A stretch of 60,082 bases of DNA, from assembly GCA_031255775.1 (NCBI GenBank), contig JAIRRW010000031.1:1-60082 (forward strand). Direction: 5' to 3'. Below, piece by piece: positions 3,285 to 32,383 of the stretch. A program made the translations under genes and the position numbers. The notes under the pieces were generated by a model. That model was not told the origin of the DNA. It saw only the letters and a program-made list of their open reading frames with translations, and searched no databases. Position 1 is the stretch's first letter, and each line of letters begins with the position of its first letter. The stretch comes from Clostridiales bacterium (GTDB taxonomy: Bacteria; Bacillota; Clostridia; Christensenellales; Pumilibacteraceae).

Positions 3285-4788
3285 GTATTCCGATTCCGTC
3301 CAAAAATTTGAGGAAGGAGGCGGTACCGGCCTCGTCCTTTTTAAAGACGGCGGTATTGTCCAAAATGCCCTCGCAAATGCGGTTGATCTCGTCCTTGATG
3401 TTGAGCTGCGCCTCAATCGCGCTGCACTTGGGCGCCTCTTTTGTCAGCTTTTCGATCATGGGCGCGTAAATTTTCATCTCGTCGGGCAGCGCGGGCTTGC
3501 TGTACTTGACCTCCTTGGTCAGGTATTTTTCGATCTCCTTGAGGTGGCCGTCCAGCCTGCCGGGCAGGATGAAAAGACCCATGGCCTCGATCAGGCCGAT
3601 GGCCTCGCGCTTGATGTGGTGGTATTCGGGGTGCGCGTGATAGATGCCGTCGGGGAACTCCTCGGAGGTGCGGTTGTTGCGGAAAATGAGATCCATCACG
3701 TATTTGTCGTCGAGCTTGCGCGCGACGGGCGTGACGCCGTTGTGCTGCTCGGAGGTCTTTGCCAATATCCCGATCGACTCGTCGGTGTAGGTCTCCCAGG
3801 CGGCGATTATTTTGGACGCGTATTCGATCATCAGCTCCTTATTGGCGCCGCAAAGGCGGACGACCGAATTGTACCAGTCCACGATGCCCGTATCGACGTA
3901 CGGATATTCGGCGCATTTGAGCTTGGTCAAAATCGGCGCCTTGTGCATGGGAAGCTGCTTCATGCCGCCCTGAAAATGGTCGTGCGTCAAGATGGAACCG
4001 CCGATGATGGGCAGCGCCGCGTTGCAGCCGATAAAATAGGCGGGCGCAAAGTCGACAAAATCCAACAGCTTGCGGACGGTGTCGCCGTTTACCTTCATGG
4101 GGGTGTGCGACAGATTGACCGCGATGCCGTGCTGGTTGAAGTACGAATACGGCGAAAATTGCCAAAACCACTCCTCGCCGCCCAGCGTCAGGGGGATCGT
4201 CCGCAGGTTTTGCCGACACATTCCGTGGCCGCAATACCCTTCGTTTTCGACGCAGATGTCGCAGGCGGGATAGCGCTCTTCCTTCGTCTTTTTGGCGGCG
4301 GCGATGTCGGCGTTGTTTTTTTCGGGCTTGCTTAGGTTGATGGTGACCTCCAGCTTGCCCTTGGTCCCCTTGGCGTCCCAATGCTTATTTTTGGCGATGC
4401 GGCTCTGCTTGACATAATCGTTTTTGACCGCGTAATCGTACAGCCAGTCGAACGCCTTTTGCGGCGAACGGCCATGCAGCCCCGAAAAAATGTCCGCCAC
4501 CTCGGACGGGCGGATGCTGACCGCGTCCATGACGTGCGTGGCAAACGCCTCCCGCGCGTCCTCCTTGATGACGCCCTCGGCGACCGCGTACTCGACGATG
4601 GGGGTGAGCACCGCGTCGGGATTGGTCATCTCCTCGATGGCGTCGCAATCGACCTCGTACTCGGTGTAGCCCGTCAGCTTGAGGTCGGTGAGCAGCCGGT
4701 TGCGGACATAAACGACGTCCAGCTCATCCAAAAAGAGATGCGCCTTTGCGTACGTCAGCAGGTTTTCGATGTGTGAATAAATGATCAT
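3280..4788 (-). CDS. galT: UDP-glucose--hexose-1-phosphate uridylyltransferase (Firmicutes type)
   Basis: Leloir-pathway enzyme that swaps UMP between UDP-glucose and galactose 1-phosphate. At 502 residues it has the length of the Firmicutes GalT family rather than the roughly 350-residue E. coli type. Recognisable blocks are SILTHDHFQGG, ICVENEGYCGHGMCRQN and HPEYHHIKREAIGLIEAMG. The start has AGGAGAAGG directly upstream. It is monocistronic here; its partner galK lies at 17.5-18.7 kb in a different operon, and no UDP-galactose epimerase gene is seen. The leader carries a small hairpin at 4806-4827, and the stop runs straight into a family C repeat. Confidence 0.95.
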   Translation of the reverse strand: MIIYSHIENLLTYAKAHLFLDELDVVYVRNRLLTDLKLTGYTEYEVDCDAIEEMTNPDAVLTPIVEYAVAEGVIKEDAREAFATHVMDAVSIRPSEVADIFSGLHGRSPQKAFDWLYDYAVKNDYVKQSRIAKNKHWDAKGTKGKLEVTINLSKPEKNNADIAAAKKTKEERYPACDICVENEGYCGHGMCRQNLRTIPLTLGGEEWFWQFSPYSYFNQHGIAVNLSHTPMKVNGDTVRKLLDFVDFAPAYFIGCNAALPIIGGSILTHDHFQGGMKQLPMHKAPILTKLKCAEYPYVDTGIVDWYNSVVRLCGANKELMIEYASKIIAAWETYTDESIGILAKTSEQHNGVTPVARKLDDKYVMDLIFRNNRTSEEFPDGIYHAHPEYHHIKREAIGLIEAMGLFILPGRLDGHLKEIEKYLTKEVKYSKPALPDEMKIYAPMIEKLTKEAPKCSAIEAQLNIKDEINRICEGILDNTAVFKKDEAGTASFLKFLDGIGIR

Positions 4789-4805
4789 GTTCCTTCTCCT
4801 ATTCT

Positions 4806-4827
4806 CGGGTCGTGTTTTTCGCGGCCC
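4806..4827 (-). other. Small hairpin in the galT leader
   Basis: The plus-strand sequence GGGTCG pairs with CGGCCC around a T-rich loop (GGGTCGTGTTT...). The same GGGTCGTGTTT arm occurs in the hairpin at 22404-22427 and at the right end of the family A element near rex, so this may be a degenerate miniature of family A. It sits between galT and the run TTTTTTTT at 4829-4837. Confidence 0.4.
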
Positions 4828-4891
4828 AGTTTTTTTTCTTGTTATTTTTTTGCGCTTTTACGACGCGGAGTGGGCAAATCATGAGGTATAC

Positions 4892-5015
4892 GGAGTGACA
4901 AAGAGTGAGGTTCAGACGGGCAACAGGCGGCAAGGCGACGAGGGCGCGTATTTCTAATACGTAACCGAGTCGTCGCGCCGCACGTAGCCCGTATCAACCC
5001 ACTATCTGTCACTCC
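4892..5015. repeat. Family B structured repeat, copy 1
   Basis: A 124-base element bounded by GGAGTGACA and TGTCACTCC. Its outer arms of over 30 bases are nearly identical to those of the inverted copy at 24408-24533, and similarity extends left to about 4864. The middle differs between copies but each middle forms a hairpin. Here GCGGC, GGCGAC and GCGTATT pair with GCCGC, GTCG and AATACG. The right end lies three bases from the rluA stop codon. No open frame is present. Confidence 0.8.

Positions 5016-6621: not shown

Positions 6622-6625
<4 letters not shown>
5768..6625 (-). CDS. Class I SAM-dependent methyltransferase, RlmI/RlmK-like
   Basis: The 285-residue product has a Rossmann SAM-binding motif (LNLFGYTGAASAA), an acidic strand (VTHVDAAKGMVE) and the catalytic DPPGYGRGP, which match the C-terminal half of the RlmI/RlmK family that methylates 23S rRNA. 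The PUA domain of true RlmI is missing; the first roughly 80 residues are a small beta-rich region instead. The substrate is therefore only inferred to be RNA. The start overlaps the ileS stop as ATGA, so translation is coupled. Grouping with ileS and an rRNA or tRNA pseudouridine synthase suits a translation role. Confidence 0.82.
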
Positions 6626-9726
<3,101 letters not shown>

Positions 9727-9786
9727 GATCCTTGCTTGCCCTTTTGTCCGATCCGTCGGCCGATAAAAAAATCCGACTTTTAAATA

Positions 9787-9817
9787 TTGAGAGAAGAACA
9801 AACTGCTCTTCTCTCAA
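9787..9817 (-). terminator. Hairpin between the SRP RNA gene and ileS
   Basis: An 11-base perfect stem (TTGAGAGAAGA with TCTTCTCTCAA) around a nine-base loop, followed on the minus strand by AATATTTAAAAG. It probably ends SRP RNA read-through or attenuates transcription into ileS; the U-tract is weak. Confidence 0.55.
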
Positions 9818-9825
9818 ACGCCGCC

Positions 9826-10097
9826 AAAAAACTGTGCATCCGCCGTCGATATAAGCCGCCGAAGCGTCCCGCCGTCAGCCGACTCCGCCAAAGCTCCCCT
9901 GTGGCACACATTATGATCTACTTAGTGCTGCTGCGGTCAAGCCCTGACACGGTTCATAGGATAACGTTGCACAAGACCCTGGTATCAACATTACTTAACG
10001 ACAACTGCCTTCCACGATCTATACCTAAGGCGGCGTTCAGCCCCACTATAGCGGATTGTAGGTACAGGGCACCGCTGGCTCCCCGCCTAGCACAGTA
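9826..10097 (-). ncRNA. Signal recognition particle RNA (large bacterial type)
   Basis: On the minus strand, the 5' part (GTGCTAGGCGGGGAGCCAGC, GGTGCCCTGTA, CAATCCGCTATAG) matches the Alu domain of Bacillus scRNA. The S domain shows GAACCGTGTCAGGGCTTGAC, then GCAGCAGCACTAAG and TGTGCCACAGGGG. The ends pair (CTGTGC near the 5' end with GCACAG), and the 3' end runs into TTTTTT. At about 270 nt it is the long Bacillota type. The Ffh-binding hairpin is capped by UGAC (URRC type) instead of GGAA. It has its own promoter. Confidence 0.93.
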
Positions 10098-25242: not shown

Positions 25243-26202
25243 TTAGTCCCGCTTGGGCAGGATGACGATGCGCCGATTGGGCTCGCGCCCCTCGGACCTT
25301 GTCACGATTTGCTGATTGTCGTTGAGCGTCGCGTGGACGATCTTGCGGTGCGCGCTGCTCATGGGCTCCAGGATCACCTTGCGCCCGGTCTTGATACATT
25401 TTTCGGCCTGGCGGTTGGCAAGCGCGACCAGGGACTCCTCGCGCCGCGCCCGGTAATTTTGGCTGTCCACCCGGATCACGGCGTGGCGGCCGCCCGCGCT
25501 TTCGGCCGCGCGCTTGCACAAAATCTGCAGCGCGTCCAGCACCTCGCCGCGGTGCCCGATCACGACGCTGTCGCCGGTTTGAATGTCGGCAAAAAGCACG
25601 CCCTCCTCGTCCCGGGTCGCGGTTGTGCCCTCGACGCCCATCAGCGGCAGCAGCCTGTCGATATAGCTCTTGACCGCGTCAAGCTCGGGCTGGGTGACCG
25701 GGGTCAGCGGCCTTCTTGCCGCGCGATCCTCGCCGTAAGCGGGTCTATGCGAGGCGATCGGCGCGTTTTCGTACCGCTTGGCAAACACCTCGCCGCCGTC
25801 CGAGGCGTCGTCCGCCGACTGTTTGTCCGACGGTTCGACCCGCTTTTTGTGTTCCGGCTTGGGCTCGGCTCTTTTGTCCGCCTTTTCGCCGCCCCGCTTT
25901 TCCTTCTTGTCGCCACGGCCTTCCTTTTGGCGAAAATCGGCGTCCCCGGCGTCCCTTTTTCTTTCCTCTTTTTTAGGGGGCGCGGGGCGCTCGGCGCTCG
26001 CCTTGGCGGCGGGCGGCGGCGCCTGCCCGTCCCGACCCGTTCCGGCGACCGACGAGAGCGTCAGGCGCACCTTGGCTTTCTTAAAAAAGCCGCCCTGCTC
26101 GAGCACCTCGACGTTGACCTCATCCATGGTGGCGTTCAGCTGCTTTAAGCCCTCGCTGATCGCGTCGTCCAGTTTTTTGGCCGTCACTTCGACCTGGTTC
26201 AT
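25243..26202 (-). CDS. jag: Jag/KhpB RNA-binding protein
   Basis: RNA-binding partner of KhpA linked to cell elongation in Bacillota, usually encoded next to yidC. Order: a Jag-N domain (residues 1-50, VEVTAKKLDDAISEGLKQL), a long charged linker rich in Lys, Glu, Arg and Pro (about 55-145), a KH domain with SVVIGHRGEVLDALQ in place of GXXG-type loops, and an R3H domain (ALANRQAEKCIKTGRKV then MSSAHRKIVH). AGGAGG precedes the ATG. A possible promoter lies in the gap to yidC. Confidence 0.93.
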   Translation of the reverse strand: MNQVEVTAKKLDDAISEGLKQLNATMDEVNVEVLEQGGFFKKAKVRLTLSSVAGTGRDGQAPPPAAKASAERPAPPKKEERKRDAGDADFRQKEGRGDKKEKRGGEKADKRAEPKPEHKKRVEPSDKQSADDASDGGEVFAKRYENAPIASHRPAYGEDRAARRPLTPVTQPELDAVKSYIDRLLPLMGVEGTTATRDEEGVLFADIQTGDSVVIGHRGEVLDALQILCKRAAESAGGRHAVIRVDSQNYRARREESLVALANRQAEKCIKTGRKVILEPMSSAHRKIVHATLNDNQQIVTRSEGREPNRRIVILPKRD

Positions 26203-26278
26203 ACAAAAACCCTCCTATTTAGCGCCCCGTTCCGAACCCTTAGCGAAGCCTAAGCTGTCCGGCGCGGACGGCGGCATA

Positions 26279-26307
26279 ATTTTAACAAAAAAGCGGCGGA
26301 CGGGCAA
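26279..26307 (-). promoter_or_regulatory. Possible promoter of jag (TTGCCC-17-TAAAAT)
   Basis: Moderate hexamers with 17-base spacing in the yidC-jag gap, about 70 bases ahead of jag. A small GTCCG/CGGAC hairpin falls in the leader. Confidence 0.5.
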
Positions 26308-26335
26308 ATGTATGCCTTTTCCTCCGCTTGATCGG

Positions 26336-27463
26336 TCACAAGTCCTTGGGGTCGGGGCGGCCGTACTTTTGCACCTCGTTTTCGAGCTTGAACTTGTCGT
26401 TTTTGTCCTTGAGGTAAAAGATAAGGTTGGCGGTGAGCGTGATCGTCAGCGTGATCGCGTAGTTGATGACCAGATAGATCGCGAACGCGGCCGTATACTG
26501 GAGCGAGAAGATGCCGATCATGATCGGCATGATCCACATCATCATCTTCATGGTGTTGCCGCCCATCGCCCCGCCCGGCTGGGACTGCCCCATCTGCTTT
26601 TGCTGGCGCTGTGACAGAAACTGCTGGAGAACCGAGAGCCCTAAGGACAGGATCGGGAGGATCAAAAAGCCGTTGGTGGCGTTGGATTCGTCGTCGATGA
26701 GGCCGGACATGACAATGTCGTAGTCCGCCGTCATCTGATTCAGCTTTTTTTGCGCCTCGTCGATGTCCCCGCCAAACATCCCCGATTTTGCGGGATCGGT
26801 CGCGTACTTGCCGGCGTTGGCCTTCCACTTGTCAAAGTCGTTGATGGGCTTTTGCCAAAAGACGTCCGGGCTCCAGATGTTTTTGATCCACAAAAAGTCC
26901 TCTTTGATGCCCGCGTAATGCGCCTTGACCGCCTCCTGTCCCGCGGCAACGGCAAGGTCGTTGGCCTCCTTGTCCGTCTTTCCGGCGGCCGTTTCGGCCT
27001 CGCGAACCACGGCGTGCTCGGCCGTGTAGACATTGTGCAGCTCGTAATACTGCTTAAAATTCATATACTGGCTGATCGAGTTTAGGCTGATCAAAAGGGT
27101 GATAAAGATGACCATGGTGAGGAGGGCGGGCAGACAGGCCGACAAATAGCTGTAGCCCTCCCTTTTGTTTAGGGCCATCTGTTTTTGCGCAAACTGTGTC
27201 TGGTCGGGATATTGCTTTTTCAGCTTTTCGATCTCCGGCTCGAGACGCTTGGTAATCTTTTGGTTTTTGCGCGTCTTGACGCGCTGAAAAATGTCCAGCG
27301 GCGAGAGCGCCAGCTTTAAGAGCACGGTAAACACGACGACGCGCCAGCCGTAATCGGCGACAAAGCCAAACACGGTCAGGATAAACCATGCCCAGGGCCC
27401 GCCGGGCTGATTGATGCCCAGTCCGTCGGCCGCCGCCAGCAATACGGTATTTAACACAGCCAT
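26336..27463 (-). CDS. yidC: Membrane protein insertase YidC/Oxa1 family
   Basis: Inserts proteins into the membrane alone or with Sec. The 375 residues contain the Oxa1 core: first span ([17 protein letters not shown] then [14 protein letters not shown]), the charged coiled loop [19 protein letters not shown], and later spans ending in [19 protein letters not shown]. The conserved groove Arg is a Lys here (VLLKLALSP). The extracytoplasmic loop between the second and third core spans is about 130 residues, much longer than in B. subtilis. The start overlaps the yidD end by 13 bases. No lipobox is visible. Confidence 0.94.
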
Positions 27464-27741
27464 TTCATATCTCCTTTGGGGTTGTCGGGCACGGGATCAA
27501 ACCCGCCGCGGCGCCAGGGAACACAGCGCAGAATACGCCTCAGCCCCAAGTACGACCCCTTGATCGCGCCGTGCTTTTCGAGCGCCTCGAGCATATAGCT
27601 CGAACAGGTGGGATAATAGATACAAACCCCGGGCAAAAGCGGCGAAATACACCGCTGATAGAACCGCACAAGCGCCTTTAACGGAAGTTTTAGGGTCAGT
27701 ATATCGATCAAAAGCCTCTTGTTTTTATCGGGTTTGGTCAT
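27451..27741 (-). CDS. yidD: Membrane protein insertion efficiency factor YidD
   Basis: Small amphipathic protein associated with YidC function. The 96 residues include [14 protein letters not shown], the conserved triplet-cysteine block [28 protein letters not shown] and GGFDPVP, all family hallmarks. It overlaps rnpA by four bases and yidC by 13, so the three are co-translated. Confidence 0.95.
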
Positions 27742-28130
27742 GTCGTCGTTTCCGGGGAACCGCTCACGGGTCCCTGTTTTTCCGTCGGGATACGGAGGAG
27801 CCCCGCTTTGTCCAGCGCGTACCGCATATCGGCAAGAAGCGCTTTGTACGTCGGCGGCCCGTCCGCCGCCGCGGCCTTATTAAAGGCGAACACGGCCTGA
27901 CAGGGCTTGACAGCGCCCGGCATCTCCCGAATAATCGCGCGCATACGGCGCTTGATCTTGTTGCGGCTCACGGCGTTTCCCGCCTTGTTGCTGACCGAAA
28001 AGCCGATCCGCATACCCGACTTAGCCGTGACAAATACGAGGGTGACGGTCTTGGTGCGCACCGCCCGTCCCTTGCCGTATACATAGGCAAACGAACCCTT
28101 TTTTGTCAGTCTGTTCTGTTTTTTCAGCAT
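27738..28130 (-). CDS. rnpA: Ribonuclease P protein component
   Basis: Protein subunit of RNase P, which matures the 5' ends of tRNAs. The 130-residue basic protein has the substrate-binding N-terminal part ([12 protein letters not shown]) and the RNR-type motif [17 protein letters not shown]. There is no clear Shine-Dalgarno before the ATG; a terminator-like hairpin separates it from rpmH, so expression may depend on read-through. Confidence 0.95.
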
Positions 28131-28136
28131 ACGCCG

Positions 28137-28163
28137 AAAATACCCCTAGTCACAAAGGGGTAT
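28137..28163 (-). terminator. Terminator or attenuator hairpin between rpmH and rnpA
   Basis: ATACCCC pairs with GGGGTAT around a ten-base loop and is followed by TTTTC on the minus strand. It would lower expression of rnpA-yidD-yidC relative to rpmH. Confidence 0.6.
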
Positions 28164-28209
28164 CAAATAAGCCTCATTATGCGAATAAAACCGGCATACC
28201 GTCAACGGT

Positions 28210-28362
28210 CTATTTGCCGCCCAACGGCGCGGGCGTCAGGTCCTTTCTGCCCTTTCTCCTGCGGCGGGACAACACGCGCTTCCCCCCCGCCGACTTCATG
28301 CGCTGACGAAAACCGTGTACTTTTGCCTGTTTGCGTTTTTTGGGCTGATATGTTCGTTTCAT
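28210..28362 (-). CDS. rpmH: Ribosomal protein L34
   Basis: Translation gives a 50-residue basic protein opening [12 protein letters not shown], with [20 protein letters not shown] and RRKGRKDL, the L34 signature. L34 is usually 44-46 residues; the extra end is [14 protein letters not shown] lies eight bases before the ATG and a consensus promoter follows upstream. It leads the rpmH-rnpA-yidD-yidC cluster. The expected neighbour dnaA is absent; recG lies upstream instead. Confidence 0.96.
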
Positions 28363-28433
28363 GCCTACCTACTCCTACGTGCTTGTCCGAATAAAAGAAT
28401 CTAAATAGAGAATCTTGATAAAGAACCTTAAAC

Positions 28434-28462
28434 ATTATACTAAAACAAGCCTATCGCGTCAA
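28434..28462 (-). promoter_or_regulatory. Promoter of rpmH (TTGACG-17-TATAAT)
   Basis: Near-consensus hexamers with 17-base spacing on the minus strand, about 70 bases ahead of rpmH. Confidence 0.88.
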
Positions 28463-28518
28463 GCGTTTACCTCAATCGGCGCAAAATTCCAGAGCCCCTA
28501 TCTTTTCGGGGACTTTTA

Positions 28519-28538
28519 GATCGTGACAATACTGCCTA
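28519..28538 (-). repeat. Solo family A end fused to the recG stop codon
   Basis: On the minus strand TAGGCAGTATTGTCACGATC starts with the recG stop codon TAG and matches the family A terminus TAGGCAGTGTTTCCACGACC at 34338 in 16 of 20 positions. A GGGG/CCCC hairpin follows at about 28492-28513. Confidence 0.5.
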
Positions 28539-30545
28539 GTTGAGCGTAATATTTTTTAGCTGCGCCGTTTCCTGCTCGTCGAGGGCGGCTCTTAAACGTT
28601 TACAGGCGGCTTCGTCGGACAAAATATCCGCCGCGATCCCCTTGGCGGCGCGGACGATCGCCTCGTCTAGGATGAGGCCGCCTGCGCCGCCGGACTGGTC
28701 CTCGCCGACAAATTCGCCGCCGCCGCGCTGCATAAAGTCGTATTCGGCCAGCTCAAACCCGTCCGAACAGGCGGCGAAAAAGCCGAGGCGTTCGGCCGCC
28801 GACTCCGCCCCGCCGTCCAGAATAAAGCAATAACTCTCCCGCTCGCCCCGACCCACGCGGCCCCGCAGCTGGTGCAGCTGGGACAGGCCCAGCCGATCCG
28901 CGCCGTAAATGACCATACTGGTGGCCGCGCGGACGTCCAGCCCCACCTCGACCACGGTGGTCGCGATGAGCACGCGCGCCTCGCCGCTCTCAAACCGGCG
29001 CATGACCGCGTTTTTTTCGGCCTCTTTGAGGCGGCCGTGAATCAGCGCGAGTTCGCCGGGCTTAAACCCGGCCTTTTCGCGGTCAAACAGCGCCTTAGCG
29101 GCGGGAACGCCCGTCCGCTCCCCGTCGTCGTCGTCCTCGTCGATGCGCGGGCAGACCACATAGCTCTGCTCGCCCGCGGCGGCCTTGCGCTTTAGGTAGT
29201 CCCACATATCGCGTTCCTTACCCGGCCGCACGACCCGCGTGACCACCGGCTTGCGACCCTCCGGCTTCTCCTTTAGGACCGACTGGCGGAGCTCGCCGTA
29301 CAACGCGAGGCTAAGGGTGCGCGGAATGGGCGTGGCGCTCATGCTCAAAATGTCGCCGCCCGCCGACTTGCTCTCCAGTAGGCCGCGCTGCCCCACGCCG
29401 AACCGCTGCTGCTCGTCGGTGACGATGAGCGCCGGATTTTTGAAGATCACGTCCTCGGACAGCAGCGCGTGCGTGCCGATAATAAAGCCCGCCGCGCCGC
29501 TCTCGATCTCAAACAGCGCCGCGTCCCGCGCCTTTTTGGGCAGAGAACCGCTCAGGCGGCAGCATCGGACGCCCAGCGGCTCAAACAGCTTGAGCGCGGT
29601 TTGATAGTGCTGAAAGGCCAAAATCTCGGTGGGCGCCATTAAAACCGCCTGACAGCCCGACAGGTACGCGTAATACATGGCAAGCATCGCCACCACCGTT
29701 TTTCCGCTCCCCACATCGCCCTGCAACAGGCGGTTCATGGGCTCGGGGCCGCTCATATCGCAAATCACCTCGTCCAACGCCCTCCGCTGATCCCCGGTCA
29801 ATCGGTACGGCAGGCCGTCCGCCGCCTTTTGCAGCGCCTCCCGTTTGTCGGCGTACACCACCGTGCGGGCGCGGCGGCTTTGACGCCGAACCAGCGTATG
29901 CGCGGCCAGCGACGTCCCCAGCTCCTCGGCCGAAAGCGAACGCCTGGCCAGCACATAGTCGCCGTACGTCTCCGGTCGGTGCAGCCGCCTTAGCGCCGCG
30001 TTCCGCCCGATCAGGCCGTATGCCTCGGCGGTCTCGGCGCGCAGATAGCCGGGGTCGCCGCATCCGGCCAGCGCCTTTTCGATCAGGCCGATCAACGCGC
30101 TGTTGGAAACGCCCTTGACCGGCGGATAAAAGGGGTACAGCGCCCGCTCCTGCGGAAAGGAAATGAGCCGCGGCGCGCTCAATTGATAGGACGATTTGGT
30201 CTTTTTTAGGCGGCCGTAGGCGTAATAATACCGATCCGCGGCCAGACTGTTGGCGTAAAAATCCTGGTTGAACCACACCAGCGTCATCGGCGTGTCGCCG
30301 TATATCAGCTTGACCCGCAAAACCGACAGCCCGCGCCGGATCCGCACGGGACGCGGCGTCTCGGCCACCCGCCCCAAGACCACCGTCATCTGCCCGTCCT
30401 CGAGATTCTCCAGCGGTTTTAAGCCGTTTAGCGCGACCACCGTGCGCGGAAACAGGCGCAACAGCTTGTCCGCCGTGTCGTATCCGGCATCCAAAAGCGC
30501 TTGTTTTTGGCGTTGGGTCATCCCATCGAGGGCGGTGATGTGCAT
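28536..30545 (-). CDS. recG: ATP-dependent DNA helicase RecG
   Basis: Branch-migration helicase that regresses stalled forks and processes Holliday junctions. The 669 residues have an N-terminal wedge OB region, Walker A LLQGDVGSGKTVV, Walker B variant DEQQRFGVGQR (usually DEQHRFG), and helicase motifs such as SMSATPIPRTL and QLRGRVGRGE. Codons upstream lie inside DnaA boxes; the ATG used has GGGAG nine bases ahead and starts at the conserved MHITALDGMTQRQ. It is third after yloU and fakA. Its TAG stop is the first three bases of a family A end. Confidence 0.93.
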   Translation of the reverse strand: MHITALDGMTQRQKQALLDAGYDTADKLLRLFPRTVVALNGLKPLENLEDGQMTVVLGRVAETPRPVRIRRGLSVLRVKLIYGDTPMTLVWFNQDFYANSLAADRYYYAYGRLKKTKSSYQLSAPRLISFPQERALYPFYPPVKGVSNSALIGLIEKALAGCGDPGYLRAETAEAYGLIGRNAALRRLHRPETYGDYVLARRSLSAEELGTSLAAHTLVRRQSRRARTVVYADKREALQKAADGLPYRLTGDQRRALDEVICDMSGPEPMNRLLQGDVGSGKTVVAMLAMYYAYLSGCQAVLMAPTEILAFQHYQTALKLFEPLGVRCCRLSGSLPKKARDAALFEIESGAAGFIIGTHALLSEDVIFKNPALIVTDEQQRFGVGQRGLLESKSAGGDILSMSATPIPRTLSLALYGELRQSVLKEKPEGRKPVVTRVVRPGKERDMWDYLKRKAAAGEQSYVVCPRIDEDDDDGERTGVPAAKALFDREKAGFKPGELALIHGRLKEAEKNAVMRRFESGEARVLIATTVVEVGLDVRAATSMVIYGADRLGLSQLHQLRGRVGRGERESYCFILDGGAESAAERLGFFAACSDGFELAEYDFMQRGGGEFVGEDQSGGAGGLILDEAIVRAAKGIAADILSDEAACKRLRAALDEQETAQLKNITLN

Positions 30546-30562: not shown

Positions 30563-30685
30563 TTATCCACATTTTATCCACATTTTATGGGGTCGAAAGC
30601 CGAGAAAATGTTTCACAATGTTCCACGACGCCGCGATCGGGCGGTAAATGATACAAAGTTATCCACAAAATGTGGATAACTTTGT
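30563..30685. promoter_or_regulatory. Cluster of four perfect DnaA boxes between fakA and recG
   Basis: TTATCCACA occurs at 30563-30571, 30574-30582 and 30659-30667, and its reverse complement at 30671-30679. The last two form a palindrome with 15-base arms (30653-30685). Perfect boxes at this density suggest DnaA binding, either as an origin element, a DnaA-titrating site or a DnaA-controlled promoter. No dnaA gene or strongly AT-rich unwinding region is adjacent, and gene orientation does not switch here. Confidence 0.6.
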
Positions 30686-30745: not shown

Positions 30746-32383
30746 TTATTCTAAGGATACGATATAATAGTACAGGGGCTGGCCGCCGAAGTGGATGTCG
30801 ATGTCGCAGCGCTTGTAGTCGGCCGCCAGCGAATCGGCGATCGCCTGCGCCTCGTCCTCGGTCACGTTGTTGCCGAAGTAGAGGGTCACGTTGCTGATCT
30901 CGTCGTCCATCATGCCGGCCACCAGCTGCTTGGTGACGTCGCCCACGCTGTCGCCCTTGGCCACGATGGCGTTTTGATCCATCGCGATGATATCGCCCTC
31001 TTTGAGCTCAAACTCGTCGACGGTGGTGGAGCGCACCGCATAGGTGACAAGCCCGGCCTTGATGTGCCGGATGGCCTCGTTCATGCCGGTCTCGTTGCCG
31101 GCGGCGCTGTCCTCGGGATTGAAGGCCAAAACGGCGGAGAGCCCCTGCGGCACGTTGCGCGTCGGAATGATGTGCAGCTTGCGCTTGCTGAGCGCCTTGG
31201 CCTGCTCGGCCGCTAAAATGATGTTTTTGTTGTTGGGCAGGACAAAAATATCCTTGGCGCCCACCGCGTCGCAGGCCTTGGCGATGTCGTCGGCGCTGGG
31301 GTTCATGGTCTGGCCGCCCTCGATGACCTTATCGACCAAGAGATCTTTAAAGATATTGGTCAGCCCCTCGCCCGCGCAGATGCTGACGATGCCAAAGGGC
31401 TTTAAGTCCTCGCGCTTTTGTCCGGTGAGCGCGCGGTTTTGCTCGAGCATATTTTCGATCTTGAGCTTGTCAAGCTCGCCCAGCTCCAGCGCGTAGGTCA
31501 GCGCGACGCCCGGCTCGTTGGTGTGGACATGCACCTTGACCATCGAGAGGTCGCCGATGACCAGCACGCAGTCGCCGATGGACATCAGACTCTCTCTTAA
31601 GCGGTCGATGTCGGCCTCGGTGGTCTTTTTGTGGAGGTTGATGACAAAAAACTCGGTACAGTAGGCAAATTCGATCTCGGCCAGGTCGTTGTAATCAAAA
31701 TGCGACTTTTCGCTGTACTTGTCCTCGTCGATGGAGACGTTGTCGTCAAAGGCCAGCGACACGTCCTCCGACCCTATCAGCACGTGATGGAAGCCCTGAA
31801 AGACGATCAAGAGGCCGCGGCCGCCCGCGTCCACGACGCCGGCTTTCATGAGGACGGGCAGCATTTCGGGCGTCCGCTTTAGGGTCTCCTCGCCGTCCTC
31901 GATGATCTTTTGGATAAACTCGGTCATCTCGATATTCTTTTTCGAGTACTTTTCGGCGCTCTCGGCCAACGACCGGACGACCGTCAAAATAGTGCCCTCC
32001 TTGGGCTTGGTCACCGCCTTATAGGCGACCTCCGTCCCCTTTTTGAGCGCCCGGGCAAAATCCTTCGCCCCAAACTCGGTCACCGAGGACAGGACGTCGG
32101 TCATGCCCCGGAGAATCTGGCTCAAAATGACGCCGCTGTTGCCGCGCGCCCCCCGAAGCGCCCCCTTAGACACCGCGCCGCACAGGTCGCTCATCTGGTT
32201 GGAGGGACAGTTGGTCACCTCCTTCGCCGCCGAAAACATGGTGAGCGACATATTGGTGCCGGTGTCGCCGTCGGGCACGGGGAATACGTTTAACGAATCG
32301 ACATGTTCTTTATTGATATCGAGGAGCTTGGCCCCGTTTAAAATCATTTTCCGAAAGGTTGCGCCGTTGATGGTTTTGTACAT
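30746..32383 (-). CDS. fakA: Fatty acid kinase catalytic subunit FakA (YloV, DAK2 domain)
   Basis: Phosphorylates fatty acids held by FakB proteins so that they enter phospholipid synthesis. The 545 residues start with a DAK2 domain (SLNVFPVPDGDTGTNM, with the Asp residues binding Mg-ATP, then GARGNSGVILSQILRG) and continue with the DegV-like C-terminal part (FGIVSICAGEGL, FVLPNNKNI). It follows yloU and precedes recG, the order seen in many Bacillota. No fakB gene is in the window. GGAGG lies 12 bases before the ATG. Confidence 0.93.
   Translation of the reverse strand: MYKTINGATFRKMILNGAKLLDINKEHVDSLNVFPVPDGDTGTNMSLTMFSAAKEVTNCPSNQMSDLCGAVSKGALRGARGNSGVILSQILRGMTDVLSSVTEFGAKDFARALKKGTEVAYKAVTKPKEGTILTVVRSLAESAEKYSKKNIEMTEFIQKIIEDGEETLKRTPEMLPVLMKAGVVDAGGRGLLIVFQGFHHVLIGSEDVSLAFDDNVSIDEDKYSEKSHFDYNDLAEIEFAYCTEFFVINLHKKTTEADIDRLRESLMSIGDCVLVIGDLSMVKVHVHTNEPGVALTYALELGELDKLKIENMLEQNRALTGQKREDLKPFGIVSICAGEGLTNIFKDLLVDKVIEGGQTMNPSADDIAKACDAVGAKDIFVLPNNKNIILAAEQAKALSKRKLHIIPTRNVPQGLSAVLAFNPEDSAAGNETGMNEAIRHIKAGLVTYAVRSTTVDEFELKEGDIIAMDQNAIVAKGDSVGDVTKQLVAGMMDDEISNVTLYFGNNVTEDEAQAIADSLAADYKRCDIDIHFGGQPLYYYIVSLE

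Follow-up and report, generated by a model that had tools for sequence, protein, structure and literature searches.

Between fakA and recG, the analysed stretch, a contig of 60,082 nucleotides (the window), carries within 117 bp a cluster of DnaA boxes which, judged from its sites and their conservation, is on balance best regarded as a conserved, putative DnaA-binding control site in the promoter or leader region of recG, and which is probably not a chromosomal origin. The window is the entire contig C53 of an assembly of 1,707,245 bp in 143 contigs (89.8% complete). Four perfect TTATCCACA boxes (three on the plus strand, one on the minus strand) were located at the coordinates of the original prediction, in the following setting:

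30563..30571, plus strand: DnaA box A (TTATCCACA), the box closest to recG, 17 bases from the recG ATG, in a direct pair with box B
30574..30582, plus strand: DnaA box B, in the same direction as box A, 11 bp further
30610..30626, minus strand: direct repeat of the parS half-site GTGRAAC, GTGGAACATTGTGAAAC, with a 10-bp period, between both box pairs
30653..30685, no strand: inverted repeat of 33 bases with perfect 15-base arms and an AAA loop, in which two extended DnaA boxes ACAAAGTTATCCACA stand face to face
30659..30667, plus strand: DnaA box C, perfect match
30671..30679, minus strand: DnaA box D, perfect match, in an inverted pair with box C
28536..30545, minus strand: recG, directly downstream of the element (NCBIfam RecG models, E-values down to 7.9e-182, below the curated cut-offs)
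30746..32383, minus strand: fakA/yloV, upstream of the element (TIGR03599, 596 bits, over the cut-off)
28210..28362, minus strand: rpmH, 2.2 kb from the element (TIGR01030, over the cut-off)
27738-28130: rnpA, after rpmH
26336-27463: yidC, after rnpA
25243-26202: jag, after yidC

The whole 1.7 Mb assembly contains 12 perfect DnaA boxes, four of which are in this gap, and the Poisson estimate for four boxes within 117 bp anywhere in the assembly by chance was about 3e-8. With up to one mismatch allowed, 18 boxes were found in the window, versus 5.8 ± 2.3 in shuffled sequences. The DnaA protein of the same genome carries GGRDHTT, which we take to be the box-recognition motif. Boxes C and D had been described as lying in a 33-base palindrome; the inverted repeat of that length with its 15-base arms is real, but the AAA loop is not self-complementary and the repeat is thus no strict palindrome. 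Folded as RNA it reached -20.5 kcal/mol (z -6.0), and no Rfam family matched at the fakA-recG element at the gathering score. Elsewhere in the window, the minus strand encodes an isoleucyl-tRNA synthetase at 6622-9801, with MupA as the top NCBIfam score (1001 bits, under the cut-off of 1900), and a bacterial large SRP RNA (Rfam RF01854) at 9832-10095.

The gap behind fakA was read in 70 of the 74 family genomes (G019, G037, G057 and G071 were left out), and two to four perfect boxes were present between fakA and recG in eight of these, distributed over five genera (g1, g4, g5, g11 and g12). The other 62 genomes had no perfect box in this gap, a count in which G018, with a distant paralogue only, and 11 genomes without a recG match after fakA are entered as box-free. 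From the 80 named loci, 79 were readable and five had boxes, on the same contigs as in carriers G030, G031, G059, G061 and G062; locus L235 was dismissed as a further carrier, being the same sequence as G059. An exact direct pair with 2-4 bases between the boxes occurs in seven of the eight carriers, the second box being degenerate in G031, and an exact inverted pair in four. Inverted box pairs were also sought without bias by a pattern search, which gave matches in 21 of the 74 genomes and in five of these led to fakA-recG. The RecG proteins of the carrier genera are only 37-47% identical to each other, yet in an alignment of five gaps scarcely any column outside the boxes and a portion of the GTGRAAC motif was invariant, a pattern indicative of selection on these sites. 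Gaps with boxes are 107-228 bp long, versus 0-106 bp in 46 of the 48 box-free genomes with recG next to fakA (the exceptions being G051 with 211 bp and G056 with 168 bp). On the recG tree, some branches of which are long, the box trait needs about four changes, and accordingly it has been gained or lost more than once.

The location of the boxes beside the recG start, together with the lengthened gap, favours control of recG transcription by DnaA, although the adjacency to recG is partly by construction, since this gap was the one read. The boxes with their position and their recurrence in relatives, the unchanged skew at the site and the separate origin-like loci of carriers are observations; binding of DnaA and of ParB, an effect on recG and the direction of that effect are inferred. 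DnaA would bind both the direct pair by the recG start and, further upstream, the inverted pair, and would thereby gate recG transcription, repression being thought likelier than activation, so that the RecG level would be tied to the DnaA status. As a side effect, the four strong boxes would hold some DnaA, and a ParB-type protein may read the half-site repeat between the pairs in genera g1, g5 and g12. According to passages of PMC4447404 and PMC8203912, apparent repression is the commoner outcome where Bacillus subtilis DnaA clusters lie upstream of non-origin genes. No promoter stood out: the scan of the window returned one weak match on the recG strand (9/12), overlapping the inverted pair, and the scans of G058 and G062 returned none on that strand between fakA and recG. 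As most family genomes with fakA-recG are box-free, recG does not generally need the boxes. Loss of RecG leads to over-replication in Escherichia coli and B. subtilis, according to the passages of PMC6116050 and PMC13220808 that deal with it, and a link between DnaA and RecG would therefore make sense: if DnaA controls recG, the initiator would govern a helicase without which both species over-replicate. DnaA clusters outside oriC are already known; recG as their target was not found in the literature searched. The word recG has no occurrence in the texts of PMC4447404 and PMC8203912, and DnaA control of recG was not found in the open-access literature searched, including the recG passages of PMC13220808, by which its absence from print is not established.

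The inverted pair could instead be merely the transcription terminator of fakA, with the boxes incidental to it. All five sequences folded gave a stable RNA hairpin, a T run follows the hairpin in some relatives, and ordinary hairpins occupy the same place in several relatives without boxes, the last two points as judged by eye. In the window, however, neither a T run nor a terminator-like match accompanies the inverted repeat, and the reading was set aside as weak there. It also leaves the direct pair of seven of the eight carriers unexplained, and the extended box AAAGTTATCCACA recurs in the rsmG cluster of G058, so that termination as the sole role appears scarcely probable.

A cluster of DnaA boxes is also what is looked for in an oriC, and the element has one. 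It is the sole cluster of perfect boxes in its own assembly, contains both inverted and direct pairs, and lies in a gap of 42% GC within a window of 59% GC. A chromosomal origin relocated from dnaA to this place would show in the skew, but the GC skew of the window in 5-kb bins was negative throughout from 5 kb onwards, with no turn at the element, the single exception among the 2-kb bins being a value of +0.009 at 38 kb. Likewise, on contigs G030:C41 (13 and 87 kb) and G031:C36 (10 and 70 kb) the skew was negative to either side of the element, and on G058:C18 (34 and 6 kb) it was positive to either side; in G029, G061 and G062 no change was seen at the element, on contigs that are short on one side. 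Around 4000-5000 of the window, the skew passes from positive to negative and the direction of the genes switches.

The original prediction had doubted an ordinary bidirectional origin here, and it was borne out by the unchanged skew, by the genes, which on both sides of the element mostly point the same way, as it had noted (along the minus strand), and by dnaA, which as it had said is missing here: contig C120 carries the assembly's one full dnaA. A DnaA-trio run, which with an AT-rich unwinding element is looked for next to origin boxes, was not found in the window by a single simple pattern applied to the plus strand only, and the 60 kb contain neither parS nor ParB, the genome's own copies of which sit on contig C9. 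Moreover, this intergenic box group coexists with separate origin-like loci in G058, G059, G062 and probably G029, as would an extra-oriC cluster. The rsmG loci of G029, G031 and G061, which have no cluster within 1.5 kb, would agree with an origin at fakA-recG; against the skew and the positions of dnaA, rsmG, parS and parB, this reading was dropped as very improbable. A secondary or conditional origin, active in some cell state, would suit the origin-like arrangement of the boxes, but it has left no trace in the skew either, and we give it just as little credence. The case cautions against equating an assembly's best group of DnaA boxes with its origin.

The location of rpmH at 2.2 kb from the element was correct, but its proximity, which had been taken as a hint of an origin, did not hold up as a sign of one in the relatives. 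No rpmH match was obtained on the stretches read around the element in G029, G030, G031, G058 and G062, nor on those read around the rsmG cluster in G032, G049, G050 and G058. As rpmH was not found near recG in the former five, the order recG followed by rpmH-rnpA-yidC-jag (minus strand, 25243-30545 of the window) is perhaps a rearrangement of the lineage.

In much of the family, oriC goes with a box cluster on the rsmG side, and with parB on the contigs tested. At least two perfect boxes within 1.5 kb were present at 18 of the 40 rsmG loci read; at locus L009, mnmE lies on the opposite side, as identified by family search. On eight contigs with an rsmG box cluster, the skew changed sign within about 5 kb of the cluster in three (G032, G033 and G050), within about 20 kb in another three (G048, G049 and G058), and the turn was unclear or far in two (G034 and G059). 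A ParB homologue accompanies the box cluster at a distance of no more than about 5 kb in G032, G033 and G062, and of 12 to 38 kb in G050, G049 and G058. The 30 dnaA loci read had no more than one box each, even by the relaxed pattern, and dnaA is thus no marker of the origin in this family; in G050, a single contig carries both dnaA and the rsmG cluster, with about 170 kb between them. The genome's own dnaA (C120:48005-49390; L001, L218) adjoins an IMP dehydrogenase gene, and the 51.8 kb contig C120 has no DnaA box by the relaxed pattern. In two genomes (G050:C14:163141 and G054:C56:6882; L011, L014), the contig with the rsmG-side pair has a second inverted box pair 9 to 12 kb away from it.

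Among the carriers of the fakA-recG element, G058 and G059 have a separate rsmG cluster as well, G029 has, some 2 kb from rsmG, seven boxes when up to one mismatch is allowed, and contig C22 of G062 has three perfect boxes, three parS sites and ParB. A skew change on the latter contig was discounted, as it arises only from the last 71 bases. In G030, contig C1 has an inverted pair close to its start (G030:C1:3142-3172; L004, L179), and the skew beyond this pair is positive; the pair is a candidate oriC. For G031 and G061 no oriC was found, and with the rsmG loci of G029, G031, G061 and many others being without a cluster, oriC has not been located in every genome. The genome under study has on C9:3279-4557 (L214, L317) two perfect parS sites and a ParB/Noc-like gene, with gatA-gatB further on; the contig carries one perfect and two near DnaA boxes, and rsmG was not found in this genome, the assembly of which is 89.8% complete. 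The skew of C9 was clearly negative in the first kilobase only and positive from 2 kb, a stretch too short to count. C9 is a candidate, proposed with modest confidence, for the region around this genome's origin.

Between the box pairs, the repeat GTGRAAC-N3-GTGRAAC was present in five of the eight carriers (the window, G030, G031, G061 and G062) and was not found in G029, G058 and G059. Across the 74 family genomes it had seven matches, five of them in the element, versus none for the reversed control. The motif GTGAAACA is one half of the parS palindrome of the family genomes, and a putative link of the repeat to ParB is plausible. The complete 16-bp palindrome TGTTTCACGTGAAACA does not occur in the element, which has two direct half-sites only, and its matches in the genome under study are on C9. 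Of the two family matches outside the element, that of G069 is accompanied by a ParB homologue at most about 1 kb away and adjoins a parS-like palindrome, and that of G044 is in coding-like sequence, by eye. An order-wide search of 396 genomes, sampled from a larger set, gave 28 matches in 25 genomes, 23 of these matches outside the family; as the reversed control also gave 23 by our count, most of the matches outside the family are due to chance. At two of the 23 loci (L326 and L344) a ParB homologue is no further than about 1 kb away, one (L333) has a parS-like palindrome, and 21 have no ParB homologue within 1.5 kb. The consensus of extracytoplasmic-sigma promoters is TGAAAC plus CGT, and such a promoter was rejected for the repeat, the second part being without constant spacing by eye.

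By analogy with the 39-mers of Vibrio cholerae chromosome II, at which ParB2 competes with the initiator (PMC3688505), the element might act as a dual switch of DnaA and ParB, a possibility that overlaps with both recG control and titration of DnaA. The half-parS repeat of the five carriers with its blank reversed control, the ParB homologues near the non-element repeats of L326, L344 and G069, and the parS-like palindromes adjoining those of G069 and L333 are consistent with this, but the incomplete parS, the three carriers without the repeat, an order-wide frequency outside the family no higher than that of the control, and the lack of a ParB gene on the stretches read around the element make such a switch rather unlikely. 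A site combining DnaA and ParB, at which initiation and segregation status would set the RecG level and the initiator would tune a safeguard against stray replication, has in our estimate a slightly better yet still low chance.

The main rival of recG control is a titration or nucleotide-switch site, similar to datA, DARS and the B. subtilis clusters, whose effect would be on initiation instead of recG transcription. The two are compatible and can hold together; a datA-like role alone is possible, though clearly the less probable. The element's four boxes are one third of all perfect boxes of the assembly, the two box groups around a second motif resemble datA, which depends on its boxes 2 and 3 and on the IHF site separating them (PMC4585315), and according to passages of PMC13220808, six clusters outside oriC affect initiation timing in B. 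subtilis. However, a pure titration site is free to sit anywhere, whereas here only 17 bases separate the nearest box from the recG start, and gaps with boxes are longer than those without, which is suggestive only.

As a putative DnaA-binding control site of recG, the element shares perfect boxes with the rsmG clusters of its own family, some of which also have inverted pairs with the extension AAAGTTATCCACA, but unlike the element, most of the rsmG clusters tested coincide with a skew turn or lie close to one. Like datA and DARS of E. coli, it is a short non-coding DnaA-box locus off oriC, datA requiring boxes that flank the site of a second protein (PMC4585315). The V. cholerae chromosome II 39-mers (RctB/ParB2) are inhibitory initiator sites to which a partition protein can also bind (PMC3688505), as may hold for the element; they involve another initiator, and ParB binding at the element is suggested by the motif alone. 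The extra-oriC clusters of B. subtilis (trmE, ywlC, yqeG/sda, ywcI/vpr, yydA and gcp/ydiF) likewise consist of several intergenic boxes off the origin and, in the passages concerned of PMC4447404 and PMC8203912, are often upstream of a DnaA-regulated gene; unlike these, the fakA-recG element has four boxes that are all perfect, with a half-parS repeat between them.
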